DNA of 64,000 bases from Onchidella celtica. Taxonomy: Eukaryota > Mollusca > Gastropoda > Systellommatophora > Onchidiidae. Positions within the stretch are counted from its first letter, which is position 1. Every line of letters starts with the position of its first letter. Below, piece by piece: positions 26,401-53,282 of the stretch. Both the position numbers and the translations under genes were made by a program. The notes under the pieces were generated by a model that was not told the origin of the DNA, ran no database searches, and worked only from the letters and a program-made list of their open reading frames with translations. The stretch lies in assembly GCA_963931925.1 (NCBI GenBank), contig OZ007569.1, positions 71,985,618 through 72,049,617 of the forward strand, read 5' to 3'.

Positions 26401-29400
26401 ACATATAGTGTGTACCTTGTTCTTCATTTGTCAAGCAGAAGTAGCAATCATTATGATGATCACTCTGTTCTCACCAAACTAGTCGGAGGCCAAAAGGCAT
26501 GCTTTTAACTTTCTTTGCTGACTACATCTTTTATGTACAGTTCTTGCAGGCCATGTGAGGTGCAGAATATTTCATCTTGAAAATAAATCTAATGGATTGA
26601 AAAGGGGGCGAATCTCTGAGGGGCGGTATTCCAAAATGTAGGCATGATACCACTTCTAGCACAATGGACAATCAAAGAAAAGTGTATGCAGGTGGTGTAT
26701 GCCAAATTTCATGGTGATATCAAGAAATGCAATGTTATTCCCCAAAGGGACCCCACTATTTTACAAATTCATACACGAATGAGAGACCATGGAGTTAGGT
26801 GTGACTTTAATTGATGATTGATTGAAATGTTGTATCTTAAAGGATGTGGCTTTCAACAAGAGGGGAAAACACGAGTAACTTTCCCCGACTTTAGTCCGTA
26901 TTTGTTCTATCTCCACATTCTGAAAATCTAGAGATCGTTTAATGTGTACAAGAGATAAAACGAATGCACACTTTGACATTTCTTTAAAATTCGTTGAGGC
27001 ACTTATCAAGCTGTTTCACAGTTCATCATAATACTTGAGCTGTAAACATTTATCGACAAATTTCTGACTTGTGCAAAAAGTGGAGTTGGAACAAACAGGA
27101 ACCAAGGTCGCATTTTGGTGACTTTGTATTTTGCCAGTTTTGTTTCAACATAGTTTATTGCTGGTTCCTGCATATGTTATCTTTGATGTCTTATACGTGT
27201 AATATGTGTTCTTTGGATTATCACAGCTGGGCTGGTTTCCTTTGGTTTGAAAAGGTTTAAACTGCTGGCACATTCAAAGGAAATTTACTTTTAGATGGAA
27301 TTTGTGTTGCCCATAAACCAATAAGGACGTGCATAGAATTCAAGATTTAGGTTTAAATCAAGAATAGAATCTACTAGAATATCAGACTTAGAAGCACCAT
27401 GCGAAAAATAAAAATGGGTACCCAGAAATTTCATGTGCAATAAACTGGGGTGACTGAGGAGTGGCCATATCTTTAAATCTGGCCTTCAGCTGATCCAAGC
27501 TTTTTGCACAGTCAGCATGCAATGATATTTCTCTTTAATTGTTGGGAGGATCGTTATGAACGGGACATTTTTAGCATAATTGGTAGGATTACTGAACAAA
27601 TAAAAAATCAAATAAGTATTACTAATTTTGTTTTAGTATACAGATCTGGGGTGGATGTAAGAATGCCATCAGCCAAATGTACAGGAAGCAGGCCTAATGA
27701 ATGAAAATCGCCAATATACAATACAAAACATATGAACACTTGTGCAGTCAAAAGGACTAGTAATAATAGTATTTAAAATTTAAAGTTCCCTTTTTACCAT
27801 CTCTTAACAAAGACATGCTACAAAGCTGGAGTATCAGTGAATTTTAACTGGGAGGACATCAGTATTTAAGTGTACTCAAAAAAGGGAATTGTACACTGTC
27901 TCATTGTCTGGTTGTGCTATGTGTTTCGTAAATTTTCAGCAAGGTGATAACAGTGACTGAAGCACTATTAATAACACAGTAGCAGTTCACACAGTAGATT
28001 CACAGAACAGAAAGATGTACCTCGAACATGGCATTAGACGTTGGAGGTTATAATATAAATTTAATGCCCACAGATGAAGCCACAGCTGCTGCCACAAACA
28101 TCTCACCAGAACAACCTTCCTTTTACAAGTTGCGAGTTGAGGTCCAGCCTTTGTCAGGTGATAAAATGCGATATCTATTGAATTTTAAAGAGTGCGACTG
28201 AAATGTTCACTTTTATAAATGCGTACCCCCCACTAATGTGAAAATTTATAAGGGATGTTATTTATGGGGGTAGAAGCATGCAATTCAGATCAAAATTGGA
28301 CAGCTAGCCCCAGATACATTTAAAATTACAGACAGGTCTTGCAGGACTGGGAGGATTTGTAGTTTACTGTTTTGTCAAGTTGTAAAGGATTGATTTTTAG
28401 TGAATCAAATTGGGTTTCAAGAAAAAACTAAGACATTAATGATGTGCATTCCTTGGAAAAGGCAGTACTTTAACCTCTTTGTGATTTTTCATATACAAGG
28501 TACAGCATAGTTTCTGTGGCAAAAGGTATGTCATAAAATTAGCTGATTTTGCTATAACCGGAGACCTTAGTACTTTCTCCATACTTAATTCCATTGTAGT
28601 GACTTTATGTACTATTGTAGCAGGAAACAAACTGACCAAAAAAAAATGTGCCATGCCAAAAGGGTACAAATATAAACTTTTCAATTGGGAGATTTACAGA
28701 GCAGTTTTTTCTGCTTGTTTCCAACTTTCATTCTCATTCTTCTTGTGTCTGTCGAGCATCCAGCATGGAGCCAACAAGCCATCATTTGAATCCATGGTCA
28801 TTGAAAAGTTATAAACCTTCAGTTGAACAAAGATGGAAGTGATTAAAACGTATGAAGGGTATTGTTTACAAAATTGTTACAACACACAGTTTGAGGCTTG
28901 AGTTTTAGTTTAATGGCATGTTGGCATGAGAACGAAGGAAGGAGGGGGGAGGAAGGAATTAACTTGTTTGCTGGCCAATGATTTTTTTAAGCCTTTGCAT
29001 GTGGTCTTGAAAGAATTTGTCTTAATTGCACCACTTGTTTCCAATTTCATTTGATGAGTTTCGGGTGCTTTTTTACTCTTTTGTCTCTATAATGGGAATT
29101 GAACTCTCTATGTAATAATATTTGAAAGTTTTACAGAAAAGTGATGTCATGAAAATCATTGTCAAACACTCACAATAATCTTAAAATAAAACAGTGCATG
29201 CACTAAACAGCATTGTGAACTTCTGGGCCACTTAAAAAAAAAGAAATACCCTGAAATCGCATTTGGGTTTAAAATAAAAAGTCATCTCAATCCAAATACA
29301 TTGAGCACTGCTGCTCATGCAAAGTAATGTTTGCTGTAAGTCTCCCGAACTTTCATTTAGAAAGACAGAATATTAAACATCCAATCTATGACAAGCAAGT

Positions 29401-32400
29401 GACTTACTGAATCAAATGGAAAAAGTAAAATTTAATTACATTGATTGTTCTAACCATTATTTTCTTCCAATGATATAGGCAGTGACACTAATTCCCAGGA
29501 TACTGACAACAAAACACTTAGCCAGCTATACAAGACACTGTGTGACACTGTGGAGGCAGACATTCCTTTAAATGTAAGTGTTATTAGTAAGACAGTTATC
29601 CCATGCTGAAGGGTCTCTCTGTACCCATGTCCATGTGGACATGCTGGCATGACCTCCAGAAAACTGAGCAGATCAGTAATTCTCACCATGGGTGATATCG
29701 CCCCATGGAGAAGAGTTTGTGTTTCAAAGGGGGGCAAAAACAAAGTAAAAGCCGACCAGAAAGGGGAGGGGAATCATCCAAGGAACAGTTTGCTTTCAGT
29801 GCCGATTTTGTTAAAAATGGTTATATTAGACTCTCCATGAATGTCATTCCTATTTTGTCCGGTAATTTAAATGCTTTTTCAGTGGAATTGTCTACATTTT
29901 TTCACGAGCATTTCACGTTCATGAATTGAGTATAATGCTTGTGCATGAAAAATGGAGGACGGTGGTAGGAGTGTGGTTGTAGAGAGTGGTCGTGTAACGA
30001 AAAAGCAGACAATCTCAGTTTGCTTCCATTTTGCCTTTTATGTAAAGGAGACATTATAGAATGGAGGTGGGGGCAATGTAGCATCACGTCAGAGCGTCGC
30101 TCTGGTCATTCTGGCATGGGTGACAATCTACGATGTGACATCATCTAGTGTCACTACAGAATCCTGATTCCGCAGATCACATAAGATATTAACTTTGAAT
30201 TTCTATTATGCAGCAGAACCTGCTTAAACCGAAAGTGGATAACAACAAATTTCTCTTTATCCGAAAACATTTCTGTGGTCCCGCCGTAATCCTTCTATAT
30301 TCTTCTGTATTCCTTATAAGTTCCCTCTTAACAGGGAAAGAAAATTGTATAAAAACATTTTAACCGAAAAATTCTCTTTTACCTGCTCTTTTTAGCAAGG
30401 CTGCTGCTTCAAAAGTTTAGTGCCTTTGATGTGAAATAAAACAATCCTGCCTTGTTAATTTCATGCACGACTATACAGGGCTACTAATAGTGTCTTTGAA
30501 CAGGCTGACGAGGATACCAGACAGTAAGGTGCCTTCTGGTCTTCTCACCATTCCGTGTGTCATGGGCGTCACATCGTCTACAACACATTCACTAACAGTA
30601 ATTCTCCTGTAATTCAAGTACATTATATTCCATACAACCATCCACAATTTGTCTATACTTTTAGGCTACTGCACATAAAGGTCAAAATTGGGCAAAACGA
30701 AAAAGTTATATGTAGCGAAGCCCCACGTGAGAAATAATACCCAAACGATACAAAGCAAACTAAAGAGAAGACAGAAAATGGTCAAATTTTCGGCTTTCGA
30801 CTTTATCAAAAAAAAAAAAAAAAACAGAAATACAGAAAAATGGAACGGAGAAAACAATCGAACAATAAAATGTGAAAGCCAAAAATTTGACCATTTTCGG
30901 TCTTCTCTTTAGTTTGCTATGTATGGTTTGGGTATTATTTCTCATGCGGGGCTTCGCTACATACAAGTTTTTCTTTTTGCCCAATTTTGACATTGCTTAT
31001 GGCCCTGCTGCGACCCCACAGTTTTTCTGTGGTTTTTATAATATTTTGTATAAAGGTGCAGCTCATTCATACACACACACACACACACACACACACCACA
31101 CATACTACACACTACACGCATGCACGCATGCAAAATGGAGTTTCATTGTTGAATACAGCACATCAAAGGGAGTAATGAAGTAAAATTACCAATATATCTT
31201 ATCACTTCCCTTCAAGACACTAAATATTGCAATTTTAAAAATTACTTTTTATCCAAAATTCTGTTTTTATGTAATACAGTTGTTGGTCCCCCTGAATGTC
31301 GGCTTAAGCAGGTTTCATTGTAATAATGAATGAAAACAGAACAGTTACAATCATTTTGTACTGATTTGTGTGAGGGTTACTCTGAAACCCTGAGATGTCT
31401 ACAAGACTGCACCCTTGCACATCTAGAAAAGAGGAAGGGGAAAAATGACAGCTTCCTAGCCCTTCATTAGGATTTGGGATTTGTTGAGGAGGCCGAGAAG
31501 TTGACATATCTCACACAATCATGTATGATTGTCCAGTACTGTCACTGTATGCGAGTCTCTTTTAACTCCACTTTGCCCACTTCTTATTTAAGCAACTTGG
31601 GTTAAAAGTGGCAAACTCTCAAAAATGTACGAATAACAGAAATGATAACTTGAACTTTCTGGGTTAATTGTAACTATATTCTTTACTCATTTGTTATGCA
31701 GGAATTCGAAAATGGCAAGTTCTACAGTTCTAAACTGCATAAGAAGAAAATAGAGCATCTCAAGAATGCAAACAAAAAATACCATAGAGATGCAGTTAAG
31801 TTGATTTCCCAACTTGACTGCATGGCCATTCCACATGAAACGATCAACAGGTTTTGTTTGGACTGCAAGCCGCTGGACAACTTCAAAGAGTTTATGGATG
31901 TGAGTATAGAAAGTATAGAATATTGTCGGCATATATATCAGTTTGATAACAACCACTATAAAAACAGGTGCACAACATTTTGTTCAAAAATTCTGAAATC
32001 TGAAAAGCTCCGAAAATGGAGCATTTTACAACTGAGCATCACTTACATCGTCAACAACCTGAAGTAGTGCCAATCCCGAGCCAATGTCTACAAAACTGCC
32101 ACACTTGCATCAGGTGGCAGGAGACTTAGTTCAACACTTCCAAGTAACATATGCAACTGACACGTGAATACTTATCAAAGCCACTGGCAGCCAATTTCTT
32201 TGATAGACCAGAGAAACTTTGCCCACAATTACCAATCTCTGTTTTATTATTTTGCCTTTAGCGAACAGTTACAGATTACAAAGCATAAAGCAAAGTGGGG
32301 GGGGGGGGGTGGTATCCTTGTGATCGGAATTTTACATTGCCCTATTGTCCTTAATCCTCAAACAGTTTTTAATAGTCACTGGTGACGGGGGTTATAGTCT

Positions 32401-35400: not shown

Positions 35401-38400
35401 GTCCCTGTGAATTGTGAGTCCAGTGTTTTGCTTATTCGCTCTGCTTTTTGACACTCCAAGCAAATACCATGGAAAGCATGGCCAATTGGATAAACAGCCG
35501 GTTCTGAGGGTTGCACGCGTGTCCATAACATTCTTGCGTGTATGATTAAAGCTGTCAATGCTGACTTTTTTAAAGTTGTCGAGAGATTTTCATACCGCAT
35601 ATATATGTGTCAGCCCGAAACTCTGCAATGTCAATTCCCTTGATATTTCTTGATGTTATATACAGCTTTGAAACATTTGGTTTTACAATATCTGCCCCAA
35701 GAAGGGTAAAGGGTAGTGCTGAGGTCAGATATTAATCTGTTTAAGATAGTGACACTTCCAAAAGTCTCAGTGGGCATGATAACCCAATCAAGTAATCTAT
35801 AATGACGAATGTGATGGGTGGGATGTGAGATTATTTGAGTGGGCATTTCAGTGAAAAAATTCAAATTTCAACAAAGACCATGAAACTATGATCAAAACAA
35901 TAGCCTTGATCCACTGATTGCAAATCTTTTTTGAATTTTTTTAATATCTCAATTTGTTGCAAAGTTATGATTTGTTTTTTTCTGTAGTTATTTCTGGCTT
36001 AATTTTAGCACTAGCGACTGTGGCAGGATGGGGCGAACGACTCTGGCTGTCGGTAGGGGACGCTACCGCCAATTTCTATGTTATCGGATACAAACTAACG
36101 CTGTTGAATGTAAAGAAGCATTTTTATGCGAAGCCCAGCGCCTTGCTGATTGACTAAATTAATTGAATTTTTACCATATTCGGGAGAAAAGACCATTCAA
36201 AACATTTAAGTGAAGTTTCAAAAACATAAGACAAGTAGATTTTTTATGCACTCACAGATTCAAAATTTACTTCATTTTTTAATCAAAATATCTCTGGAAC
36301 TATCGAATCGACAGAAACTTGGAGAACGCCATTTTGAAGAGCATTCATTCCCCTTTAAAAATATGCATTGGAAGTGCCGACAAGTCGATGTTAACGAAAC
36401 AAAACGGACGGTTTTTGAGACCATGTAAATGCGCGAAAGTCACGTCAGTCACAGTTGGCAATGGGTGAAAAAGGCTGCCGCGCCAGCCTATCGGAGATGT
36501 GATAAAAAGTAAAAATCAGTTTGGACTAGCTAGTACTAGTACTCTGTACATTCCACACTCGCGTTATTGAAGCCATGGGTCATCCTCTTTGTCCACACAT
36601 CCCCTTTCCTGCTCCTTTCTGCCAACGCCGCAAAAGAAATAAAGAGGTCTTATTTGCAGTGAGTTGCCTAGGCATTTGCGGCAGCACAGTAGTAGATCTA
36701 GTGCACTTGCTGCGCTCTGGTTGGGGAGAAATATGTCCATATAAAAGGAAAGAATGGAATAACATGTCGAATTACGGGGAAATACATTCGACTCCACATA
36801 CTATGATGTCGCCCGATATTTTTCTTTTATCCCTTTCCCAATACCTCATTTCTACGGGGAAAAAAACGTTTAGTATGACATCTTGGAATCAGTCTTTACT
36901 CTTTGTGCAACCTCATTTTGAAAACCGACAGAGAGTGGCGCCATGCGTATTCAGACTGGATGTGGTCGCTTTGTCCATGAGTATGGGATTTTATCAATTT
37001 TAGTCTGCCTGCATTACAGATTCCCAACACTCAGAGGAGCTCATTATCATTGCCATGTGTTATTCACCACGCGGACCAATAGTGCAATATTAAATAATGC
37101 ATCAGATGTCATAAAATGCAAATGGCCACTGATTTTACTTTGTTTTTACTCTGTGTCTAGTGAAAATGATTGAATCTCTATTCCGTAGTTAAAAAAAAAA
37201 AATTGTAGCCACGCGTGTTACGGTGCCTACACGTGGGTAACCTGTTTGCTTTTTCTCCTTATCATAACCTCTGCTCTCAATGCCCAACCCGAGTAAAACC
37301 AGTGGCCTTGTGCATTTTACGACATCTGATGCATTATTTACAATTATACTGCATTATCGATCCACCTGATGAATAACACATGGCAATATTTGAACTCACA
37401 TGAGTGCTACTGCTAGGAATTGGTAATGCCAGCAGAATAAAGTTTGTAAAATCCTACACTCATGGACAAGGAGCTAGACTACATCCAATTACGAAAGATG
37501 GCAGTGTGTGTTTGACCATGACACAGATTAGGAAAATAATGCAAAGCATTTTTCTTTCCTCTATCGGTGTTGAAAATGAGTACACAAGGAGTAATTTTTT
37601 TAAGCAGTAACCCCTCAGACAACCTAATACACATAGCACTACACAAAAAAAATACCCCCTCCCCCCTTAAAAAAATCATAGTTTACCTATGCCTACCATG
37701 ATTTGATGGATTCCGCGATGTTATTTATTATGTCCCCCGTATATCATGCTAACCAATGTCAACTGCAATTAGTAGCATTAAAGAAGGACCAGGTTGGGAC
37801 TTAAAAGTTGTGTCGAGCTGTCCAGAATGTTGACAAAAGCCATCGTGAGATAAGTGGATTGGACTGTATTTCATAACTTCTCTTTCGTCTTCGTATAACA
37901 CGCGTCGAAAATAGCCAATATTACCATCCTCTGATGCATCGGCGCTCCTTAATTGACCCCTTTCTGTGAATGTTCTATTGCTTCCTATATCTTTCATTTT
38001 GCTTTCATTTGATATGTCATTTGATATGCTTTTGAACATTATGCCGTTAATAATGAGCTGTTAAAGATGAGACCCTTTTTTTTTGAGTTGGTCAAAAGCA
38101 ATTGTGGTATACAAGGAGTTAATGTTGATATTATCAAGCTATGATTTAAAAGCATTTTGATATTACATTACTGCACAAAACAGGCAAAGCAAAAGAGTGT
38201 GTGTCTGTGCGTGTGTGTCTGTGTATGTGCGCATATGCACGTAAATTTCATTTTTTTTCTTTTGTTTTCATTTCTGACTTACGATATATGGGTGATTGCT
38301 GATAACTGAGTTGTCCACATGAAGATTGTTTTACAAACTGGATACACAATTTTTTTTTTTCTTCTGCCATCCTGAAACAGACCATTTTCAAAGTACCTAA

Positions 38401-39994
38401 CGGCGATAAGACTGACCTTCTCCTGATTGGAAAAACGGGACATGGAAAGAGTTCAACAGGAAATTCTATCTTGGGGAAGAAAGAATTTGAAGCATCTGAT
38501 GCTTCAGTGTCTGTGACAAAAGAATCAGAATTTAATATTGCTGAAGTTGATGGTCGTAAGATCAAAGTGGTAGATACACCTGGTTTCTATAATACTAGTT
38601 GTCCGGGAAAAGACAACAAGAAGGCCGCACATGCAATGAGTAATGCCATAGCCTTGTGTCCGGACGGCTTTCATGCAATACTTCTGGTCATCAGCCTGGG
38701 GACAAGGATGACTCCAGAGGAGACGAAAGCAGTAGAGCATTTGAAGAAAATTTTTGGCAGTGAGATATTACAAAAACATGGTATCTGCATAATTACACAT
38801 GGTGACAATTACGAGATAAAGGACAACAAGACCTTTGAGGATTGGTGTAAAGATCAGAAAGAGTACCTCAAAGAAGTGTTTGAAGACTGTCAATACAGGT
38901 GCGTACTCTTTAACAACAAAGACAAGGATCCTAAGATAATCATGGCACAGCGGGTACAGTTGATTAAACATGTGGATGATGTGAGGCAAAAAGGCCCTTA
39001 TACTAATGAATTGTTTCAGCTTGCTAAAACAGAACGCGAGAGACTCATAAAGGCCAAAGGTTTACCACAACTAAAGACTGAGGTGAAGGAACTTATCTAT
39101 TTGATTGATGATGGCCTGAACATTTTGACAGAGAACAAGGAAGATAGATATCTGAAGGAAATAAAAATAAAAGCAGACAGTCTCAACAAGATTCTTCAAG
39201 GCGATGAAGAATTAGAACACCTGACTGATCTAAAGACTTTGGTCTCAAACATAATGAATGGACTAGAGAAAGGGAACCTCACAAAGAACTGGTTTGTAGG
39301 TATGAAACAAAAGTGGGGAGATTTAAAGCAAGAATTCGCAGAAACAGAACACCAGCATGTAACGCCAGAGGTGACTGACAAAGTGAAAGAAAAGGTTTTG
39401 GCACAAGAGTGCTTCCCAGGATGTTCAACAGTCATCTTGACAAATGGAAAATTTGTACCAATGGAGGAAATGCAAATCGGTGACAAAGTTCTTGTGAGAG
39501 ATCAGCAAGGTCACTTGAGCTATGATACAGTTTATATGTTTGGACACAAAGAGTTGGATGTTTTCAATGAGTTTGTCATTCTCAAGACAGCAACACAGTC
39601 TGTATCTGTTACAGGAGGCCACTATGTCTACTGCATCCAGGCTGGAGTGGAAGTGTGTGTTGCAGCTGAGAATGTCAGAATTGGAGATTGTTTACTGATT
39701 GCCACTAGGAGAGGATTAATGCCCCAACCTGTGGTGTCTGTCACTTGTGAGAGAAAACAAGGATTATTTGCTCCATTCACCTTCTGTGGGACAATCGTTG
39801 TAGATCAGGCCTTAATGTCTTGTTATATTGATGTTTTACCAGCTTCAATTTGCCATACTTTGTTATGGCCAGTTCGACGATTGTATCACATATCTCCCTG
39901 TGCACTGGCTTTTGTGAATGGCTCAGCCCCAGCTCATCCTGTGCCTCGTTGGGTTCAGTTTGCTATCAAGTTCATACGAACATCAGTTTACTGA
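914..39994 (+). CDS. Multi-exon gene: SNTX-like N-terminal module, AIG1 GTPase and Hint domain (spliced model, 931 aa)
   Basis: Model exons are 914-1030, 2306-2497, 21843-22002, 23147-23482, 28074-28157, 29479-29573, 31702-31899 and 38381-39994. Every intron starts GT and ends AG, all seven junctions keep phase (0,0,1,1,1,0,0), and the summed length, 2796 nt, is 931 codons plus stop. Seen: AIG1 motifs G1 (GKTGHGKS, about residue 411), G3 (DTPG, 459) and G4-like THGD (533), then a charged helical region, then a Hint domain from Cys738. Family knowledge: AIG1/GIMAP GTPases are septin/Toc-related, mostly cytosolic and immune-linked; Hint domains self-cleave. Inferred: a cytosolic GTPase whose C-terminal module autoprocesses. 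No signal peptide is visible. Exons 1-4 recall the N-terminal module of stonustoxin-like (SNTX) MACPF-related proteins, but this is weak pattern similarity. The 5' exons could belong to another transcript, although phase and orientation argue for one gene. Intron 2 is about 19 kb because of nested retroelements. No transcript data are available to confirm the model. Confidence 0.65.
1031..2305. other. Intron 1, no recognised content
   Basis: AT-rich, noncoding. It holds a short (CA)n run near 2160-2180. Small ORFs look random. Confidence 0.5.
2306..2497 (+). CDS. Exon 2 of the AIG1-Hint gene (SNTX-like region)
   Basis: The exon is bounded by TTTGTCATTCAG at 2305 and a perfect AAG|GTAAGT donor at 2497/2498. 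It encodes 64 residues in phase 0 on both sides. The ORF runs through the acceptor without an earlier stop in the exon. Sequence is amphipathic (LEQVCEILKIPLEFALKVKAG, then a beta-like TMIIAVSYLK), compatible with a MACPF/SNTX-like fold but not diagnostic. An ATG at 2333 lies inside the exon but splicing from exon 1 explains the codons upstream of it. Confidence 0.65.
2498..3410. other. Intron 2, left part before the LINE
   Basis: Noncoding. It contains poly-A runs near 2715 and 2752, and a GC-richer stretch at 2790-3010 of possible repeat origin. No coding signal is visible. Confidence 0.4.
3411..3423. repeat. Left target-site duplication of the RTE-like LINE
   Basis: ACGTCGTACCTAC, 13 bp, repeated exactly at 15480-15492. 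The pair encloses the LINE and fixes both ends of that insertion. Confidence 0.85.
3432..3896 (-). CDS. LINE ORF piece 4: C-terminal region
   Basis: Encodes SCVLSTLLYGSECW, LRRILRIFWPNKISN, RRWRWLGHVLRKE and GRRKRGRPKATWRR, the usual end of such LINE proteins, and stops at 3432-3434. In frame with piece 3 after removal of the LTR element and one copy of its target duplication. Confidence 0.85.
   Translation of the reverse strand, partial: NTKTRLYQSCVLSTLLYGSECWRMTEGDLAKLSSFHTTCLRRILRIFWPNKISNQELLRRCKQEEIANIITKRRWRWLGHVLRKEANSITKTALRWTPEGRRKRGRPKATWRRTIEAEMKSFNHSWGTLAKMAQDRQGWRSFVAALSTSGCNRK
3897..4511 (+). repeat. 5' LTR of the Gmr1-like element
   Basis: 615 bp, TG...CA ends. A TATA-like stretch (TTTATATATATGG, about 4248-4260) and AT-rich 3' part with TTTATTTATTTTAC are present. 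It differs from the 3' LTR by no base that I could find. Confidence 0.95.
4515..4532 (+). other. Primer-binding site, tRNA-Pro type
   Basis: TGGGGGCTCGTCCGGGAT matches the 18-nt complement of the tRNA-Pro 3' end used by murine leukaemia-type retroviruses. It starts three bases after the 5' LTR. Confidence 0.85.
4621..9177 (+). CDS. Gag-Pol polyprotein of the Gmr1-like element (1518 aa)
   Basis: Single ATG-started ORF, no frameshift or stop between gag and pol. Residues about 25-95 are a Glu/Arg/Lys-rich coiled coil with ERQEKEA repeats. About 110-280 is a capsid region of the type from which the vertebrate SCAN domain is thought to derive. Two CCHC zinc knuckles lie at 306-319 and 331-344. 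The aspartic protease DTG is at 431. Integrase has the zinc-binding HHCC region from His615 and the catalytic triad D685, D745, E781 with the canonical 35-residue D-E spacing. Reverse transcriptase follows (YVDD at 1252-1255), then RNase H (TDAS, Asp1403). Integrase before reverse transcriptase defines the Gmr1-type layout. It stops at 9175-9177. All catalytic residues that I can check are present. Confidence 0.96.
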   Translation: MSEVIGRLSQEADAMELTGQERRDYLREGLERERQLEAQRQEKEAERQAQEKEAERQEKEAERQEKEAERQEKEAERQLEREKMNHELEIERMRQQRGGNDSAQKTDDHASSKRPKLPAFQDKKDDLDSWLLRFERFAETAEWPRSTWTTSLSALLTGRALECFCRLPIDEAKDYDKVKEALQKRYNLSEDGYRLMFRQGKPEDGEDVGMFLIRIKTYLERWIKLSKTEETYEGVRDLFVREQFMDACPPDLATHVRERKPKTLQDIADSAEAYLVARNRTLSGSARLQSRPVRQRPNGDRSPQVCHRCQRPGHKATECRTKLNDKGELKCYLCGKPGHVRRMCPAQKDMGRGKPNKAAAAVVIAADESSTQDATTADTSINVQAVMKDGKLQLAVPVTCGGCSDGRTVEKLKLPVMKGVIGNRAVDVLRDTGCEGVVVRRSLVDDGQLTGGKKLIARIDNSLLAAEEAVIDVKTPYLTGRVTALCLPETICDLIVGNVDGAKDPYDPDTEVMVGAVTTRAQEKRKDQSTSLKVPRAERHAGVDREELIRLQEEDEVIRKLEQKKIPTNRGNKSVHFEKHGGVLYRIYKDLRQATVIRQVVLPEKLREYVLSVAHDSIVGGHLGVKKTKDRVMSNFYWPGIEGDVSRYCHSCDICQRTVNKGATPKMHLQSMPVVDVPFRRVAVDLVGPIDPPSEGGHRYILVYIDYATRYPEATPLKKIDAETVAEALVNIYSRLGVPEEILSDQGTQFMSDVMKETNRLLGIRQSTTTVYHPMCNGLVERFNGTLKKTLRRLCAEQPKQWHRYINPLLFAYREVPQESTKFAPFELLYGRTVRGPMHILRQLWTKDVEEPETKTSYQYVMELRERLEDTWKLATEELSKAQGRQKTYYDRKARERKFRPGDEVLVLLPTNTNKLLVQWKGPYKVVSIVGVNDYRVKMGAKEKTLHANLLKRYIPRTSKAAAVAMEPRPVVTEMCGMDNSRRDTTPEHVNAIKDGGGDSAETVLAEDDLIDKSQPVESAGMTVIEDCDLEGDNGGTTEDLADLGSWDQKEGYRDVQYGTQLTSEQRQELCDVVKDYQHVFTNLPGCCQLGEHRIDLTTEVPVRQRPYPVPYAMRDSLKEELSTMERLGIIRRSSSAYASPVVVVKKKDGSNRVCIDYRRLNKITVFDPHPTAAPSEVFQSLSRGKLFSRIDLSKGYWQVKVREQDIPKTAFVTMGEHYEFTRMPFGMMNSGATLNRIVKPLIRGMNNVTAYVDDLLIHTETFDEHVKTLKDLLQRMDQARLTARPSKCLIGTSEVDFVGHLVGEGMIALLEENVRKVRDAPRPTTKKEVKAFLGLVGYYHEFIPNFSAIAAPLSDLLRKGQPNIVQWDETQEKAYTSLKNVIISKPVLCLPDFSKEFVLATDASDRGLGASLMQEHEGKLYPVAYASRKLLPRETKYSVSERECLAIVWAVKKFTLYLYGKEFVLQTDHRSLEFLNSAKFDSPKLLRWSLFLQSYRFRIHYVKGRENVCADFLSRIF
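4739..4854 (+). repeat. 21-bp in-frame tandem repeat in gag
   Basis: About five units encoding ERQEKEA; one unit is 27 bp because of a 6-bp insertion. The repeat makes a charged coiled coil at the Gag N terminus. Copy number is likely variable between element copies. Confidence 0.85.
9178..9945 (+). other. Noncoding 3' part of the Gmr1-like element with polypurine tract
   Basis: No ORF resembling env. It ends in a purine-rich AAATTGGGGAG stretch at about 9932-9942, next to the 3' LTR, the expected plus-strand primer site. Minor internal repeats of CACAATG/CATTG type occur at 9640-9780. Confidence 0.7.
9946..10560 (+). repeat. 3' LTR of the Gmr1-like element
   Basis: 615 bp, same sequence as 3897-4511. 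It is followed by the target duplication GTGTT at 10561-10565, after which the LINE resumes. Confidence 0.95.
10566..11406 (-). CDS. LINE ORF piece 3: reverse transcriptase core
   Basis: Encodes LRKEQAGFRKGKGCIDQIF, FVDFEKAFDSIHR, GVRQGCVMS and the FADDLALL active site (complement of about 10872-10883), then the thumb YLGSIIRPEGG. The reading frame runs into the Gmr1-like LTR at the 5-bp target site GTGTT. Confidence 0.9.
11407..12521. mobile_element. Solo LTR, family A, copy 1
   Basis: 1115 bp with TGTCACGAG...TTTGTGACA ends and target duplication CTCCT at 11402-11406 and 12522-12526. It interrupts the reverse transcriptase ORF of the LINE. A near-identical copy with its own target duplication is at 59286-60402. 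AATAAA near the end (about 12413) suggests + orientation. No coding content; ORFs in it are random. TG...CA ends and 5-bp duplication support an LTR rather than a DNA transposon. The internal part of the parent element is absent. Confidence 0.8.
12527..13828 (-). CDS. LINE ORF piece 2: end of endonuclease and start of reverse transcriptase
   Basis: Resumes as APTNEND after the upstream insertion. It contains MGDLNAKVG, NQIDHLMI and SDHHLV (endonuclease catalytic region), a charged helical linker, and KNGKAPGKDNLTAELFK, WNEGRIVKIPKKG (reverse transcriptase block 0-1). No stop or frameshift is seen. It ends at the target duplication of the solo LTR. Confidence 0.9.
13740..14385. repeat. Exact 323-bp tandem duplication across the LINE/LTR junction
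   Basis: Units 13740-14062 and 14063-14385 look identical. Each unit holds 89 bp of LINE followed by 234 bp of LTR. It therefore arose after the LTR insertion. A recent duplication or an assembly artefact would look alike. Confidence 0.9.
13829..14768 (-). mobile_element. Solo LTR related to the Gmr1-like LTR, with internal duplication
   Basis: Starts TGTAACAG and ends ACGCTACA, i.e. the reverse complement of the Gmr1-like LTR ends. Internal stretches (AGCACGTTAT, AAAACGAAACT, AATAAATAA, GTTTAATAACTGTA) also match that LTR in reverse. Target duplication GTGCA is at 13824-13828 and 14769-14773. Removing one unit of the 323-bp tandem duplication leaves 617 bp, close to the 615 bp of the intact element's LTR. 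It is a diverged, older relative inserted in the LINE endonuclease region. Confidence 0.85.
14774..15267 (-). CDS. LINE ORF piece 1: N terminus of APE endonuclease
   Basis: Encodes the endonuclease start (TRIGYWNVRTMYESGKLAQV, LGVSESRWTGSG, YSGREDD, GVAIILKKG) and ends in IQCYA at the LTR insertion. The first in-frame ATG is at 15168 (complement); upstream codons are open to a TAA in the 5' UTR. It continues in frame at 13828 once the inserted LTR is removed. Confidence 0.85.
15268..15479 (-). other. 5' UTR of the RTE-like LINE
   Basis: GC-richer sequence between the ORF and the right target duplication. It contains an in-frame stop ahead of the ORF, so the ORF cannot extend upstream. Internal promoter activity would be expected for this class but no element can be pointed out. 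Confidence 0.6.
15480..15492. repeat. Right target-site duplication of the RTE-like LINE
   Basis: ACGTCGTACCTAC, identical to 3411-3423. Confidence 0.85.
15493..19755. other. Intron 2, middle part
   Basis: Noncoding and AT-rich. A CT-rich tract lies at 16125-16270, poly-C at about 16551-16565 and a possible SINE-like piece at 18065-18240 (ends near AATCCAAACTCAAACTC). No exon candidate with good splice sites and compatible phase was seen. Small ORFs on both strands look random. Confidence 0.45.
19756..20370 (+). repeat. Unidentified repeat-like segment, possibly LTR or element leader
   Basis: GC-richer than its surroundings. It contains a CTATTTAAGGGGG promoter-like motif and two related copies of a GTGGACCCGGCTGCTGG-type sequence near 20107 and 20226. 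It lies just before a (CT)n run. No reading frame is recognised. Assignment as a retroelement leader is a guess. Confidence 0.25.
20371..20443. repeat. (CT)n/(GA)n microsatellite
   Basis: Almost pure CT dinucleotides, broken near 20398. It forms the 3' tail of the adjacent minus-strand LINE fragment. Translated RE/LS repeats in this region are not genes. Confidence 0.95.
20444..21035 (-). pseudogene. 5'-truncated LINE fragment (reverse transcriptase C terminus)
   Basis: Minus-strand translation gives SKPEVLARTSQVTTALTKL, YACESWTLTAELEKRIQ, KRRKLKWWGHVMRSPRLAKT, then after a frameshift near 20600 KRGRQRKRWEDNIPEWTGL and a short tail. This is the thumb and C-terminal region of an APE-type LINE. 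The copy is broken by a frameshift and truncated at its 5' end; the (GA)n run follows its 3' end. Confidence 0.8.
21036..21842. other. Intron 2, right part
   Basis: AT-rich and noncoding; ends in the acceptor of exon 3. Nothing else recognised. Confidence 0.5.
21843..22002 (+). CDS. Exon 3 of the AIG1-Hint gene (SNTX-like region)
   Basis: Acceptor CACTGCAG ends at 21842 and donor GAAG|GTAACT starts at 22003. The exon holds 53 codons plus one base (phase 0 in, phase 1 out). It encodes an ITHWIKAVEIGDALVTILRI segment whose T-H and G-x-A pattern resembles a conserved segment of SNTX-type proteins. This is the strongest single hint for that assignment, but it is still only a short motif. It follows the 19-kb intron 2 that carries the nested retroelements. 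Confidence 0.65.
22003..23146. other. Intron 3, no recognised content
   Basis: AT-rich, no repeat or coding signal recognised. It ends in TTTCCCAACAG. Confidence 0.5.
23147..23482 (+). CDS. Exon 4 of the AIG1-Hint gene (SNTX-like region)
   Basis: The exon lies between TTTCCCAACAG (ends 23146) and AAAG|GTAGGG (23483). It is 336 bases, phase 1 on both sides, 112 codons. It encodes a helical part (NAFKLEFNEKLQNC...RTEELLRLAAKI) followed by a beta-rich part with a YPTSFTGMVQTVKDF segment. That layout, with an N/YPTSF motif and a following strand-rich end, resembles the end of the SNTX N-terminal module. The largest of the 5' exons, with coding-like composition and no stop across its full length. 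Confidence 0.75.
23483..24439. other. Intron 4, left part
   Basis: AT-rich, noncoding, no repeat recognised. Confidence 0.4.
24440..26390 (-). pseudogene. Decayed copy of a widespread repeat-borne ORF family of unknown function
   Basis: Minus-strand reading gives pieces in the order expected for a protein family seen in many invertebrate genomes and often left uncharacterised: PKSLDQADVNDLSRF (about 26200), WRFFIDSSNKSLKAMLYHNG (about 25040-25070), PPLQFTLGLMKN and GKAFKYLKSN (about 24850-24930), and ERFHHDIAVMEQRYHGN (about 24520-24570), then DNCWSLK. Several stops and frameshifts separate them, and 25.2-26.1 kb shows little match, so an insertion or decay is likely there. It lies in intron 4, antisense to the host gene. 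The family has no assigned function that I know; a transposon origin is likely. Confidence 0.65.
26391..28073. other. Intron 4, right part
   Basis: Noncoding. The part nearest 26.4 kb could hold more of the decayed element, but I cannot show it. Remaining ORFs look random. Confidence 0.4.
28074..28157 (+). CDS. Exon 5 of the AIG1-Hint gene (short linker exon)
   Basis: An 84-base exon with acceptor GCCCACAG (ends 28073) and donor TCAG|GTGATA (28158). Phase 1 on both sides, so it can be skipped without breaking the frame. It encodes an Ala/Thr/Ser/Pro-rich start and a FYKLRVEVQPL strand. The acceptor has a poor polypyrimidine tract, so this exon is less secure than its neighbours. Confidence 0.55.
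28158..29478. other. Intron 5, no recognised content
   Basis: AT-rich, noncoding. A GA-rich patch is near 28933-28957. Confidence 0.45.
29479..29573 (+). CDS. Exon 6 of the AIG1-Hint gene (linker exon)
   Basis: The exon lies between ATGATATAG (ends 29478) and AAT|GTAAGT (29574). It is 95 bases, phase 1 in and phase 0 out. It encodes an acidic, Ser/Thr-rich start, then a helix-like LSQLYKTLCDTVEADIPLN. The donor is a consensus match. No domain is recognised. Confidence 0.6.
29574..30680. other. Intron 6, left part
   Basis: Noncoding sequence; no element recognised. Confidence 0.4.
30681..30991. repeat. Foldback repeat with about 120-bp arms
   Basis: Arms 30681-30800 and 30873-30991 are inverted copies with roughly nine mismatches. 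The 72-bp spacer holds an A-run. The right arm and 55 bp beyond it (30888-31047) recur as a diverged copy at 58913-59078. MITE-like; no terminal target duplication was identified. Confidence 0.8.
31069..31097. repeat. (CA)n microsatellite
   Basis: ACAC repeat of about 14 units, followed by a looser CACA/TACACA stretch to about 31120. Confidence 0.9.
31702..31899 (+). CDS. Exon 7 of the AIG1-Hint gene (basic helical linker)
   Basis: Acceptor TTGTTATGCAG ends at 31701 and donor GAT|GTGAGT begins at 31900. Exactly 66 codons, phase 0 on both sides. It encodes a Lys-rich helical stretch (LHKKKIEHLKNANKKYHRDA) and a Cys-containing end (RFCLDCKPLDNFKEFMD). Its phase-0 donor can join either AIG1 exon (38381 or 42008), both of which start in phase 0. 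No family is recognised. Confidence 0.7.
31900..33589. other. Intron 7, left part
   Basis: AT-rich and noncoding, with a G-run at 32298-32309. No exon candidate recognised. Confidence 0.4.
33590..34813 (-). repeat. Probable 3' part of a CR1/L2-like LINE or related SINE
   Basis: On the minus strand it ends in a GCGCCATATAAATGTCTG segment followed by an ATT-rich run (33596-33610 complement), typical of tails of dispersed elements. The part near 33820-33850 (AGTGAATTCCAGGTCTCCAG) resembles 3' regions of CR1-like repeats. It lies just downstream of the LINE relic at 34814-35870 and may be its 3' end. Confidence 0.4.
34814..35870 (-). pseudogene. CR1/L2-like LINE relic (endonuclease end and reverse transcriptase start)
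   Basis: Minus-strand pieces in order: LLDWVIMPTETFG...NRLISD (endonuclease C terminus, about 35800), an FKTFKQIFKISDRLFGKVTQ linker (about 35300), and AKPLLKKQTLDQNLQKNYRPVS with NTLEKVILQQL and FQSAY (reverse transcriptase blocks, about 35060-34920). Different frames and stops show it is broken. Antisense to the host gene, in intron 7. Confidence 0.7.
35871..37043. other. Intron 7, middle part
   Basis: Noncoding. A short stretch at 36497-36525 (GTAAAAATCAGTTTGGACTA) recurs at 58866-58885, so part of it is dispersed repeat. ORFs on both strands look random. Confidence 0.4.
37044..37396. repeat. Imperfect inverted repeat with about 95-bp arms
   Basis: Left arm 37044-37136 and right arm about 37300-37396 are inverted copies sharing TTGCCATGTGTTATTCA, AATAATGCATCAGATGTC and AAAATGCA...GGCCACTG. 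The spacer is about 160 bp. MITE-like foldback; no coding. Confidence 0.7.
37397..38380. other. Intron 7, right part
   Basis: Noncoding; a GT-rich stretch is near 38195-38230. Ends in the poly-T tract and acceptor of the AIG1-Hint exon. Confidence 0.5.
38381..39994 (+). CDS. Terminal exon: AIG1 GTPase domain fused to a Hedgehog-type Hint domain
   Basis: One uninterrupted ORF runs from the 3' splice site (poly-T tract, CCTGAAACAG ending 38380) to TGA at 39992-39994. Codon 17 starts the P-loop GKTGHGKSS; DTPG is at 38573-38584; the G4-like THGD is at 38795-38806; a VLFNN G5-like segment follows. After about 120 charged helical residues, a Hint domain begins at Cys 39410-39412 with CFPGCSTV, IGDKVLVRD, an SVTGGHYV block with Thr (39611) and His (39620), GLFAPFTFCGTIVVD and SCY with the second conserved Cys (39821), then an HTLLWPVRR end typical of Hedgehog C-terminal domains. 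No in-frame ATG precedes the P-loop, so upstream exons are needed. Because both domains share one exon, the fusion does not depend on splice prediction. Family knowledge: Hint domains perform an N-S acyl shift and cleave before the Cys. The residue before that Cys is Glu here, not the Gly of Hedgehog. Confidence 0.93.
   Translation, partial: TIFKVPNGDKTDLLLIGKTGHGKSSTGNSILGKKEFEASDASVSVTKESEFNIAEVDGRKIKVVDTPGFYNTSCPGKDNKKAAHAMSNAIALCPDGFHAILLVISLGTRMTPEETKAVEHLKKIFGSEILQKHGICIITHGDNYEIKDNKTFEDWCKDQKEYLKEVFEDCQYRCVLFNNKDKDPKIIMAQRVQLIKHVDDVRQKGPYTNELFQLAKTERERLIKAKGLPQLKTEVKELIYLIDDGLNILTENKEDRYLKEIKIKADSLNKILQGDEELEHLTDLKTLVSNIMNGLEKGNLTKNWFVGMKQKWGDLKQEFAETEHQHVTPEVTDKVKEKVLAQECFPGCSTVILTNGKFVPMEEMQIGDKVLVRDQQGHLSYDTVYMFGHKELDVFNEFVILKTATQSVSVTGGHYVYCIQAGVEVCVAAENVRIGDCLLIATRRGLMPQPVVSVTCERKQGLFAPFTFCGTIVVDQALMSCYIDVLPASICHTLLWPVRRLYHISPCALAFVNGSAPAHPVPRWVQFAIKFIRTSVY
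39410..39991 (+). other. Hint (Hedgehog C-terminal autoprocessing) domain
   Basis: About 194 residues from the predicted nucleophile Cys1 to the end of the protein. Counting from Cys1, block A keeps G24-D25; the TxxH pair is T68/H71; the SCY cysteine is residue 138. Position 46, reached without gaps when laid against Drosophila Hedgehog, is His (codon 39545-39547) where Hedgehog has the Asp needed for cholesterol transfer. Predicted activity: self-cleavage at Glu|Cys, with an acceptor that need not be a sterol. The tail after the HTLLWPVRR segment is hydrophobic and has no match I recognise. Confidence 0.9.
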
Positions 39995-42007
39995 GTTCTT
40001 TCTTAGCGAGTGCAAGCTAAACACAGTATTGAATTATATGCAGTCTTATTACTTGACCCACCGTTAGTGGAAATTTCCCATGTTAGCTTTACTTTTGTGA
40101 ATTTAGTTTTTGTTGCCAAAGAATTTTCTATAACAGAATAAGTACTCTGGTCTTTCAAAGGTGAAAAAAATTGTTGTTTGAGTCTTTTTTTTTTTTAAGT
40201 CTTGTAGTAGAATTCCCCCCCCCCCCCCCCCCCCGCCCACAGTACATAGTGATACAGCATATGTAATCATATTGGATAATATTTTAGGGTCCCTTTTTTT
40301 TCTTAAGATTCGTTGGTTCAGCAAAAGAAGAATACAGTGCTCAGAACAATGATTTTGCATGCATTGATCACAGTAGTTGTTCCACTACTGATTCTGATGC
40401 ACCTTGATTACCTAACTTATATTTTATTTAGTTTCATCATTTTGTATTATGCATTCTCAACAGACAGCCTAGATGTAAGCAGAGTCACTGTATATTTTAA
40501 ATTGTACATGAGACAAACCAACCTGTATTTAGCAGATATAGTTAATGTTTTAAGGTTTGGTGTAAGGGTCAGAGTGGTTTTCTAAGGACAAATTGTTAAG
40601 GAATTGCCAAATACCCAAGTAATGAATGTCAGAATGTATTTCAAGAATCAGCTTGGTCACCTCATTTTCATTATTTGGAGGAATGATGTATGCTATCAAA
40701 ATCCATGTATGTTCTGTCTCTGCTTACAAAATTTTGAGTTGTTGTTACACAATTACTGAGCTTGCCAACATACTGTCAAACTTAGAAAATCATGTGTACA
40801 CCTCTTACAATAGCTTTCTTTGCTATTGGACTACAATGTGCCTATTTTGCTGGAAAAAGCCATTTGCTGTACATGAAGTCATGACAGGATTCTAGAATAC
40901 ACTGCAACCCTCATCTACAGGAAGTGGTTGTCATTCATTGGCATGCTTACTTAGACGGCTGTTAATCTTGCATTTTGCTCAGTCTCTTTGATAAGATTTA
41001 TTCAGACTCAAAGACAAGGTAGTAGAAAGACATCAGTATATCATAATAATTTGTTATATCCCGTTTAAATTCGTTTCATACACATTTGAAATGACTGAGT
41101 CTGTTATTTTCCAAGATTGCTTCAGTAAAATGCCATAGCAATGATAGCTACTTTGTTCACATATTGACAGTACTAGAAATATATTTATAATGTTGTGATT
41201 AAAATGTATTTCATTTCATTTGTGCGGTTCTTTGCAGTACAATTTTAAATGTAAATATAATGAGTCACTATTTCATCCCTTGAAAGTTGAAGCGCTGTCC
41301 TAGGTTTCTATAAATTAATAATGACAGTGAACCCCCAGAAAATCTTGTGTGTAAAGGGATCAGTTTCTGCAACCTATTTTATGTTATGTAACTGTTGTAC
41401 CATTTGTAGTTTGTCATTATGATTGTTTCTGCTTAGCAATTTTGAAATGGAGACCACCATTGGGTATATTTTTTAAATAGTGTAGAAGTTCTTGTTAGTG
41501 ATTGTTTTCATTAGTGAAAACCTAATTAACGTTAGTAGAAGATTTACCAGTGGGTAAAGATAAAAGATAAAGTAAGACAATTGAAAGTAAGTGAAAGCAG
41601 AAAGATTTTTGTAATGTGTCGACAGATATGTTTTGATTACACTTTAGAGATTATGATCCATACTGGCAAATGAGGCAAGTTGAGACTTTATCTTACACAT
41701 AATGACTGAACATTCATGTGGAGGGGCTAGAGTAGGTCATTCCGGCATTACGTTTTAAGCTATGTTTCCACTTGGGAGGAGGGTGCTTGCCTTGTGGATA
41801 CATTTGTGCAGCGCTTGGGTATTCTTGTTTAAATTTTCTGTAACGTTTTCATTTGTGTTCCTGTGCGATGCACATTAAAAAGAAGTATTTAACTGTTGTC
41901 CTGATTGATAGGCAAGTCACAAAATTATATCTTGGAAAAATCTGTGTTGAGCTGTGCTTCAAGCAGCATCCATTTGTTTTCTCTTATCATTTTCTATCCT
42001 AAAACAG
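39995..42007. other. 3' UTR of the AIG1-Hint exon and spacer to the second AIG1 exon
   Basis: AT-rich. Holds a C-run at 40215-40236, the AIG1 relic near 40.55 kb, and ATTAAA hexamers near 41203 and 41874 that could serve as poly(A) signals. No other exon recognised; the last bases form the acceptor of the second AIG1 exon. Confidence 0.5.
40545..40613 (+). pseudogene. Short relic of an AIG1 exon
   Basis: Bases 40554-40576 are identical over 23 bp to 42475-42497 in the second AIG1 exon (the VWCKGQS region). Looser similarity continues on both sides, including a shared TAAGGA and a GCCAAA/GCAAA stretch downstream. It sits between the two intact AIG1 exons in the same orientation. The rest of the expected exon is not recognisable. 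A chance 23-bp match is unlikely, but gene conversion or a local copy of a small piece is also possible. Confidence 0.5.
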
Positions 42008-43144
42008 AATCCTTTCAAATTACTGCCGGGCCGTGACCTCAACCTTCTCATTATTGGGCACACTGGCCATGGAAAGAGTTCCACTGGAAATTCAATTTTA
42101 TGTAGAGAAGCATTTTGGAGTGGAGATGGTAGCTTGATGAACGCTGCTAGCAGTAGGCAATCTGAAGTTAATCCCACAAGAACAGACTGGGCAGAAATTG
42201 ATGATCGCATAATAAAAGTTGTAGACACTCCTGGACTCGATGAGACAGATTTCACTGATGTTGCTCATGGAGCTGTTGCAAGGTTTCCTGATGGCTTTCA
42301 TGCTTTGCTTTTAGTTATCAAGTTGTCAAGTCATATGACCGAGAGGGAATTTAACACCATCAGTCAGATCAATAAAATTTTGGGCAAAAAAATACTTCAA
42401 TGCCGTTGTATATGTGTAATTACCTATGGTGACATTTTTAAAGAAACATGGGCAAGAGAGTGGGGCAGTTTTATGGTTTGGTGTAAGGGTCAGAGTGATC
42501 CTGTAAGGAAACTCTTCAAGAAATGCAAACATAGATGTGTTCTCTTTAACAATTGTGATCCAGAGCCAATGGAAAGAAAAAGACAACTGTGGGATTTAGT
42601 CAAAATTGTGGACAGTTTGGGATGCAGGAGAAAGCCTTATACTAACCGCTTGTTTAAGTTTTCCAAGAAAATGTATGAAGATTGGACAAGGAAATACAAG
42701 CAGCCACAAATGATGATCAAGACAGTGAAAAGCATAAACTTTATTCAAGGGAAGCTGAATGCATTGCTGAACAGCGGCTGTGGTAAAGCTCTAGGGGCGG
42801 ATGAGCTGAAGAAACTAAAGAAACATGTTGAGAAAATCCATGAGAATCTTTCCAAAAGTCAAAATCAGAGTTTGTCTGAACTAAAGTCTCTGATTTCTCA
42901 GCTAAAGGATGCGATCCAGCCACAGAATCCTGAGATTAGCATGGCAAGTTTGAAAAATGTTGCAACAACCTGGAACATATGCATTGATGAGTGTGTAACT
43001 CCACATGATCCTATAATCTCAGACTATATATTTGAAAAGGTGAAGGCTAAGGTTGAAGAAGATTCAGATTCCACTACATTGTGCTGCCCTTTCAACAGTG
43101 ATGTAAGACAAGACCCATTTCACGATCCAGGAGCAAGTAAATAA
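42008..43144 (+). CDS. Second AIG1 GTPase terminal exon, without Hint domain
   Basis: The open frame continues upstream to 41954, but holds no ATG before the P-loop; a strong acceptor (TTTTCTATCCTAAAACAG) ends at 42007. Exon phase is 0 and the P-loop GHTGHGKSS begins at codon 17, exactly as in the 38381 exon, so the two are tandem duplicates. DTPG, a TYGD G4-like motif and VLFNN follow, then a long Lys-rich helical region. The C terminus ends soon after CVTPHDP, at the point where the other copy enters its Hint domain, and instead carries a short acidic and Cys-Cys tail with TAA at 43142-43144. 378 residues. It may be an alternative last exon of the upstream gene (would give 772 aa) or the last exon of a separate gene whose 5' exons are not visible. 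I found no exon candidates between 39995 and 42007. Confidence 0.85.
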   Translation, partial: NPFKLLPGRDLNLLIIGHTGHGKSSTGNSILCREAFWSGDGSLMNAASSRQSEVNPTRTDWAEIDDRIIKVVDTPGLDETDFTDVAHGAVARFPDGFHALLLVIKLSSHMTEREFNTISQINKILGKKILQCRCICVITYGDIFKETWAREWGSFMVWCKGQSDPVRKLFKKCKHRCVLFNNCDPEPMERKRQLWDLVKIVDSLGCRRKPYTNRLFKFSKKMYEDWTRKYKQPQMMIKTVKSINFIQGKLNALLNSGCGKALGADELKKLKKHVEKIHENLSKSQNQSLSELKSLISQLKDAIQPQNPEISMASLKNVATTWNICIDECVTPHDPIISDYIFEKVKAKVEEDSDSTTLCCPFNSDVRQDPFHDPGASK

Positions 43145-52554: not shown

Positions 52555-53282
52555 GTGTGGGGTTTGGTTATCATTGCCTTTCTCACCCTGGATCAGGGTA
52601 TAGGCCACCAACAAACACTTTCCATCCCTCTCTATCGTGGGCCAGCCTCTTTACATTATTCCAAGTCTTTCCGCTTCGTTGCACATCATTTTCTCTGGCT
52701 CTTCTCCACGTTCCGCGCGGCCTTCCTCTTGATCTCTTGCCCTGGGGATGCCAATCCAATACCGTCTTCGTGATGCTGTTTCCTGGCCTCCTGAGAGTGT
52801 GGCCGATCCATCTCCATCGCCTCCTACCAATTTCCTCTCTGACTGGGCTCTGTCTTGTTCTTTTCCATACAATTTCATTGCTGACCTTGTCTGTCCATCT
52901 GATCTTAAGTAGCTTCCTCAAACATCTGTTGATGAAAACTTGGATTCTCTTTATGCAGGCCTGGGACGCATTCCAAGTCTCACATCCATACAACAGGACT
53001 GACTTCACGTTCGAGTTGAATATCCTCAGCTTTGTTTTTAGGGATATATCCTTGGTTCTCCAAATCTTGCTTGAGGACGTGAAAGCTGCCTGTGCCTTTC
53101 CAATTCGTGCTTTGACTTCTGCCTCTGTTCCTCCCTTATTGTCAATAATACTACCAAGATAGCAGAAGGACTCTACATCTTCCAGTGGTTGATCTCCTAC
53201 TCTGACGTGTGCGCTTGGGGGTGCAACAATATTTAGGACCTTCGACTTCGCAGGATGTATCCTCAATCCAATAGATTCTGAG
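52555..53282 (-). pseudogene. 5'-truncated LINE fragment with open C-terminal ORF
   Basis: An ORF of 227 codons on the minus strand (53266-52583): LNIVAPPSAHVRVGDQPLED, FCYLGSIIDNKGG, SVLLYGCETW, INRCLRKLLKIRWTDKVSN, RRRWRWIGHTLRRPGNSI, GKRSRGRPRGTWRR. This is the thumb and C-terminal part of an APE-type LINE of RTE-related character, different from the element at 3.4-15.5 kb. The open frame suggests it is fairly young; the 5' truncation is near 53282. Confidence 0.85.

Follow-up and report, generated by a model that had tools for sequence, protein, structure and literature searches.

A natural histidine at the general-base position of a Hedgehog-type Hint domain fused to an AIG1 GTPase in Onchidella celtica

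A stretch of 64,000 nucleotides from the gastropod Onchidella celtica (assembly GCA_963931925.1, contig OZ007569.1, positions 71,985,618 to 72,049,617; at its full length, the window) contains an exon in which an AIG1 GTPase of the GIMAP type is followed in the same reading frame by a Hedgehog-type Hint domain. The fusion is genuine at the DNA level, and its Hint carries a histidine where Hedgehog has its general-base aspartate. We propose that the gene product would be a GIMAP-type GTPase precursor, most likely cytosolic, with a C-terminal Hedgehog-type self-processing (Hog) module that probably cleaves itself at Cys344; to the transfer of a sterol or other lipid as the normal outcome of this cleavage we give a probability of roughly 0.45.

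The frame is open for 562 codons on the plus strand (38306-39991, with the stop codon at 39992-39994), and an acceptor (CTGAAACAG followed by ACC, at 38380/38381) stands just 5' of the AIG1-Hint exon. In the protein encoded by this exon, PF04548 (AIG1) matches residues 12-224 (E 3.1e-51, 174.1 bits, cut-off 27) and PF01079 (Hint) residues 341-504 (E 1.4e-34, 120 bits, cut-off 29.7), both far above the Pfam cut-offs. A preliminary description made from the sequence alone had placed the two domains in one open frame at 38381-39994 with complete motif sets, and we find the same: the G1, G3 and G4 motifs that mark AIG1/GIMAP proteins are all present, as are Cys1, TGGH, SCY (39818-39826) and an LLWPVRR stretch of the Hint (Table 1). 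Its choice of HTLLWPVRR as the protein end needs revision, as about 35 further residues follow, in a short tail resembling a sterol- or adduct-recognition region. The predicted structure of the last-exon protein matches GIMAP7 and Hedgehog Hint structures, in keeping with the Hint fold that had been suggested for the C-terminal part. Chance joining of the two domains is excluded, because the genome holds six full AIG1-Hint frames (on C3 at 72.02, 72.34 and 40.50 Mb; on C2 at 16.46, 16.60 and 16.66 Mb) and 19 proteins among the best 120 of 144 profile-search matches have both Pfam domains. Capsid-protein matches (residues 307-366, E 0.25 to 0.96) are weak and are taken as chance, and NCBIfam searches of the family members gave general GTPase models, two weak intein models and scattered weak matches besides.

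We compared 26 AIG1-Hint sequences in alignments of 11, 11 and 4, a sample biased towards gastropods and sequences within reach of our searches. Cys1, the histidine at position 46, the histidine of TxxH and the cysteine of SCY are invariant in all 26. A Hedgehog cholesterolysis domain would be expected to have Asp46 as its general base, and each of these sequences has His instead; the Hedgehog-like Hint encoded on C16 of the Onchidella celtica genome has Asp there. An engineered D303H Hedgehog keeps its structure and its cholesterol activity and takes more sterols (PMC9163320), so the natural His is compatible with sterol transfer, although this is no proof of it. In the parts of that review that were consulted a natural His at D303/D46 goes unmentioned, a silence that does not establish novelty.

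The AIG1 fusion is not alone in having His46, which also occurs in cysteine-rich Hint proteins. Four loci (L009 and L019 on C1, L017 and L018 on C18) encode secreted-looking, cysteine-rich proteins with a C-terminal Hint, a further Hedgehog-related kind, and in the two that were aligned, L009 and L017, position 46 is His and the tail contains HW(F/Y). P0006, 862 amino acids long, combines fasciclin with a Hint and has His at apparently the same position, judged by eye. A protein search with the Hint of P0005 gave no match other than itself.

Behind SCY, the tail is of near-constant length, with H, LL, P, R, P, N, P and W invariant in 11 of 11 alignment rows, and its late Trp is kept in 23 of the 26 sequences. 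The ratio of nonsynonymous to synonymous change (dN/dS; NG86, regions taken apart) of the Hint is 0.13-0.17 between the C3 and C2 groups (dS 1.18-1.51) and 0.16-0.20 when the two 72-Mb copies are compared with the 40.50-Mb copy. Reading the predicted structure and the conserved residues together, we propose that Cys344 would attack the preceding peptide bond, so that the GTPase-linker part would end in a thioester, and that His389, replacing the Hedgehog Asp, would then activate an alcohol bound in the tail, for which a membrane sterol is the simplest candidate. This would yield a free Hint and a membrane-held GTPase whose new C-terminus carries a lipid ester. Some vertebrate GIMAPs have a C-terminal transmembrane segment as their membrane anchor, and the lipid ester would serve this GTPase in the same way. 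That the GTPase could cut or ligate its own C-terminus, as suggested in the preliminary description, seems a fair proposition, since the fusion is genuine and the core self-cleavage residues are kept.

A cytosolic location is the most likely one because neither a hydrophobic leader nor a strong hydrophobic window was found in any of 11 longer homologues; modelled exon 1 has no leader, and the one hydrophobic window of the last exon (1.77) lies within the GTPase core. A secreted Hedgehog relative is ruled out by the AIG1 domain upstream of the Hint and by this lack of a leader in modelled exon 1 and in all 11 homologues. From kinship with the GIMAPs we infer a possible role in immunity or cell death. 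In a bolder and rather doubtful version of the proposal, immune GTPases would sterylate their own C-terminus in the cytosol by way of a natural His base, Hedgehog-type sterylation would not be unique to Hedgehog, and one locus may give Hint-bearing (lipidable) or Hint-less forms through alternative last exons at 38381-39994 or 41951-43144. Hedgehog proteins have been called singular in the covalent ligation of cholesterol (PMC7242414).

Several observations weigh against the main reading, self-cleavage with lipid transfer. The tail is shorter than that of the C16 Hedgehog-like Hint and lacks the HWY which that Hint has, and thus differs from the sterol-recognition region with HWY of Hedgehog cholesterolysis domains. 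Cys1 is preceded by E, G, K, Q or S in the 11-row alignment, with no fixed Gly, and the Asp of Hedgehog, here replaced by His, also curbs wasteful hydrolysis (PMC13060885). The structural model is of moderate confidence (predicted local distance difference test, pLDDT, 74; predicted template-modelling score, pTM, 0.58), with a pLDDT of 43-62 across the tail. In the closer comparisons the dN/dS of the Hint is 0.28 between the two 72-Mb copies (4 v 4 changes) and about 0.5 within the C2 trio. Identity to other gastropod proteins does not favour the Hint consistently either: the C2 copy at 16.46 Mb (C2_16.46) is 49% identical to the homologue P0015 in the Hint and 72% in the GTPase, and the window copy is 48% identical to P0015 in each domain and 62% (Hint) and 52% (GTPase) identical to the homologue P0008.

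With H..L..P.R but no HWY in the tail, hydrolysis or attack by another nucleophile is a serious rival. An autoproteolytic switch without lipid, in which hydrolysis or a small cellular thiol would cut at Cys344 and either free the N-terminal-GTPase part or remove an inhibitory C-terminus, is possible though on the unlikely side; self-cleaving immune proteins such as PIDD provide an analogy. Cleavage residues that are kept beside a short tail without HWY and a variable residue before Cys1 would suit such a switch, as would a Hint-less copy ending just before Cys1, described below, which suggests that the GTPase part may stand alone. Vertebrate Hedgehog domains undergo thiolysis without sterol, and do so faster without the Asp (PMC13060885). 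The constancy of the tail in length and residues (its Trp lost in just 3 of 26) suggests a bound ligand, however, and His at this position acts as general base for sterols in the engineered enzyme.

It is improbable that the Hint has become unreactive and now serves as a binding or oligomerising module: the ratio near 0.5 within the C2 trio would fit such a change, but the catalytic residues are unchanged in 26 of 26 sequences although the Hint of some members is only about 40% identical to that of the window copy. Far less credible is intein-type splicing that rejoins the flanks, in spite of a fold common to inteins and weak matches to NF038136 (2 of 11 members) and TIGR01445 (1 of 11), for there is no C-terminal extein of note, the stop falling 50-67 residues past SCY in 11 of 11 members, and no homing-endonuclease domain among the Pfam families of the window protein or the best 25 of 32 families of the members. 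A gene-model artefact, with AIG1 and Hint in one frame by chance or belonging to two genes, has a negligible chance of being correct, given a single frame with no stop between the domains at all six loci, the 19 proteins with both domains, and four coral transcriptome sequences that carry both (PMC3723955).

The AIG1-Hint exon probably closes a gene that spans about 39 kb (914-39994). The gastropods Candidula, Arion, Bulinus, Physella, Lymnaea, Plakobranchus, Biomphalaria, Elysia and Aplysia have proteins with the same architecture and a length of some 1050 residues, and the N-terminal half of these proteins (about 490 residues) maps in order to exons of the window with GT/AG borders. Upstream exons were modelled by homology, with tblastn of five gastropod orthologues against the window followed by the setting of splice borders. 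The single exon of the preliminary description thus holds for the AIG1 and Hint domains and probably not for the gene, for which six upstream coding exons were placed (Table 1). Support is strong for exon 2 and exon A, and weaker for exons 1 and B. Exon 1 has E values of 0.0004 (P0015), 0.005, 0.011, 0.031 and 0.22 (P0017), with every alignment beginning at residue 1 of the orthologue; for exon 2, no tblastn match was listed with P0017. Exon A matches the genome at six places, all of them 6-87 kb upstream of a C3 or C2 AIG1(-Hint) family exon and on its strand, and the genome search found none for C2_16.60. Exon B has four matches (100, 98, 95 and 49% identity), each 6-40 kb upstream, on the same strand, of a C3 GTPase exon of the family, a position that adds to its support; the search with exon B was not exhaustive, and missed diverged C2 exons seen otherwise. 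Phases fit at all neighbouring exon junctions except 28157/31702, where an exon of about 55 codons would be needed for phase and was looked for but not found. In the six gastropod proteins listed in detail, no known domain of the N-terminal half exceeds its cut-off; a match to PF01823 (MACPF) in P0015, alone among 11 members in having an E value up to 1, scores 19.5 bits where 21.5 is required. This half is the best-matching stretch in none of 50 PDB matches, and a model of exon A by itself was poor (pLDDT 56.7).

Table 1. Features of the modelled AIG1-Hint gene and its Hint-less neighbour, in window coordinates.
Feature	Position	Strand	Basis
Last exon: AIG1 GTPase, linker, Hint, tail, stop; 537 amino acids	38381-39994	+	Frame, Pfam, alignment
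AIG1 GTPase domain; G1 GKTGHGKS, G3 DTPG, G4 THGD	38414-39052	+	
Helical linker, GTPase to Hint, fast evolving	39053-39409	+	Predicted helices 233-341; dN and dS by region
Hint core, Cys344 through SCY	39410-39826	+	
Cys344, Hint Cys1 (Drosophila Hedgehog C258); predicted cleavage directly before	39410-39412	+	Alignment; 26/26 sequences
His389, at the position of Hedgehog Asp46/Asp303 (general base)	39545-39547	+	Alignment; 26/26 sequences
TGGH (Hedgehog T326xxH329)	39611-39622	+	His 26/26; first residue Thr 20/26, Ser 6/26
Cys481 of SCY (Hedgehog C400)	39821-39823	+	26/26 sequences
Tail, 55 residues, adduct/sterol-recognition-like; H..L..P.R and late Trp, no HWY	39827-39991	+	Alignments
Modelled coding exon 1; start codon, 39 amino acids, donor GTATAA, phase 0	914-1030	+	tblastn, 5/5 orthologues
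Modelled coding exon 2; 64 amino acids, CAG acceptor, GTAAGT donor, phase 0-0	2306-2497	+	tblastn E 4e-14 to 4e-9, 4/5 orthologues
Modelled coding exon 3 (THWIKAVEIGDALVTILRIS); phase 0 to 1	21843-22002	+	tblastn E 1e-6 to 0.058, 5/5 orthologues
Modelled coding exon A; 112 amino acids, phase 1-1	23147-23482	+	tblastn E 1.6e-14 to 4.8e-9, 5/5 orthologues
Possible coding exon (FYKLRVEVQPLS); phase 1 start, donor GTGATA; weakest	28011-28157	+	tblastn E 0.8, 1/5 orthologues; order and frame fit
Modelled coding exon B; 66 amino acids, helical, phase 0-0	31702-31899	+	tblastn E 0.045 (P0008), 0.046 (C2_16.46 exon)
Second AIG1 exon without Hint	41951-43144	+	Phase-0 acceptor as at 38381; no Met before P-loop

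A search of the Onchidella celtica genome (1.14 Gb) gave 94 AIG1 matches. A midpoint-rooted AIG1 tree was built from 60 of its sequences (62 of the 94 matches) and five homologues; the other 32 matches, including close duplicates, fragments and most of the C13 cluster, stand outside it. One clade (100/97), distinct from the remaining 48, unites the Hint-bearing copies with five adjacent Hint-less sibling exons and a further Hint-less copy; the branching inside it is resolved in part (93/93). The further Hint-less copy (C3, 72.094 Mb; L110, reverse strand 2973-4118) is 82% identical to the window protein up to a point just before Cys1, where it ends; it has an altered G1 (GKMGHGKS) and matching upstream exons at 72.135 and 72.155 Mb. 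Its place inside the Hint-bearing group makes loss of the Hint the simplest reading of this copy. The second AIG1 exon of the window might be a gene of its own, or else share the N-terminal half and serve as an alternative last exon. Hint-less siblings also adjoin the 72.34- and 40.50-Mb copies, and extra copies of exon B for the sibling exons were not found by the genome search, which misses diverged copies.

The three C2 paralogues present a conversion-like pattern. Between C2_16.46 and the other two, the silent sites of the GTPase are saturated and the dS of the Hint is just 0.22-0.27. Third-position identity in 40-codon windows is 0.33-0.55 over the GTPase, rises from residue 340, stands at 0.97 where the window begins at 416 or 436, and is down to 0.47 where it begins at 516. 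The GTPase of C2_16.46 is 82% identical to those of P0001 and P0008, and its Hint just 61 and 59%. In approximately unbiased (AU) tests, the Hint data reject a grouping of C2_16.46 with P0001-P0004 (p-AU 0.0035), whereas with the GTPase data the rejection of a C2-trio clade is only marginal (p-AU 0.047) and a clade of all six Onchidella celtica copies stands unrejected (p-AU 0.077); the groupings were chosen after the dS pattern was seen, so these p values are descriptive, and many branches are poorly resolved. The simplest reading of these comparisons is that the Hint was gene-converted in the three C2 paralogues and the GTPase spared. The idea of the Hint as the conserved part of the protein fails: in comparisons across species C2_16.46 has its higher identity in the GTPase, and in the window copy the two domains are about level against P0015 with the Hint ahead against P0008.

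AIG1-Hint proteins had been thought undescribed in the preliminary description, and are in fact already in the literature. They include a Biomphalaria glabrata AIG with a C-terminal hint/hedgehog domain (PMC7053062; Biomphalaria also in PMC10075465), with no signal peptide reported there in any Biomphalaria AIG gene (PMC7053062); GmGIN1 of Glomus mosseae, an AIG1-like GTPase with a Hog/Hint domain and no signal peptide (PMC2362128); a Glomeromycotina AIG1-Hint family (PMC8778642); Acropora millepora sequences (PMC3723955); and amphioxus CARD-AIG1-HINT proteins, in an article that calls the recurrent CARD and HINT architectures amphioxus-only among animals (PMC12373286). An induced fungal gene is named Aig1 in an article that lacks the word Hint (PMC7490403). 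We met no cleavage test of an AIG1-Hint protein in the literature searched, which mostly excludes subscription journals. P0015 ('GIMAP protein', 1049 amino acids) may be the same gene as the Biomphalaria AIG-hint of PMC7053062, and has the same parts as the window gene, from the N-terminal half through AIG1 and linker to a His46-bearing Hint and its tail; the window copy is about 48% identical to it in GTPase and Hint, and the Onchidella celtica family has six members, three with a converted-looking Hint. The fungal proteins (AIG1-like GTPase with Hog/Hint) and those of Acropora and amphioxus (AIG1 with a C-terminal Hint) are likened by description rather than sequence, and, unlike the amphioxus proteins with their N-terminal CARD, the six gastropod proteins listed in detail have no CARD match.

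Fold, Cys1, TxxH and SCY are shared with the Hedgehog Hint (1at0) and the D46H/D303H mutant (6tyy), and His46 with the latter; in contrast to Hedgehog, AIG1 replaces the Hedge domain, no secretion signal is seen, and the tail is shorter and without HWY. Likeness to human GIMAP7, GIMAP1 and GIMAP5 (3zjc, 3v70, 6z3e) in fold and sequence is limited to the GTPase and linker, with the Hint part unmatched in all three. The AIG1-Hint combination being known, what the present analysis adds is the structure of the gene, the natural His46 and the pattern of conversion. The preliminary description had overlooked His in place of the general-base Asp and the recognition-like tail, as well as the long N-terminal half, the other members of the six-member family and the relatives without a Hint. 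A Hog module with His46 that is conserved on immune-type GTPases and probably cytosolic offers a ready test of Hedgehog-type chemistry elsewhere in nature, and bears on the base-swapped enzyme in its own setting and on how invertebrate GIMAPs reach membranes; the conversion-like pattern confined to the Hint and the Hint-less copy are natural comparisons.

The window also contains frames that look like those of mobile elements. An intron of the modelled gene contains a 1527-residue frame (4594-9174, plus strand) with, judged by eye, zinc knuckle, protease and integrase-like parts before a reverse transcriptase and RNase H, an order that we take to be that of Gmr1-type Ty3/Gypsy elements. Frames for endonuclease and reverse transcriptase of the long interspersed element (LINE) type, likewise identified by eye, lie on the minus strand at 10494-13848 and 52586-53290.
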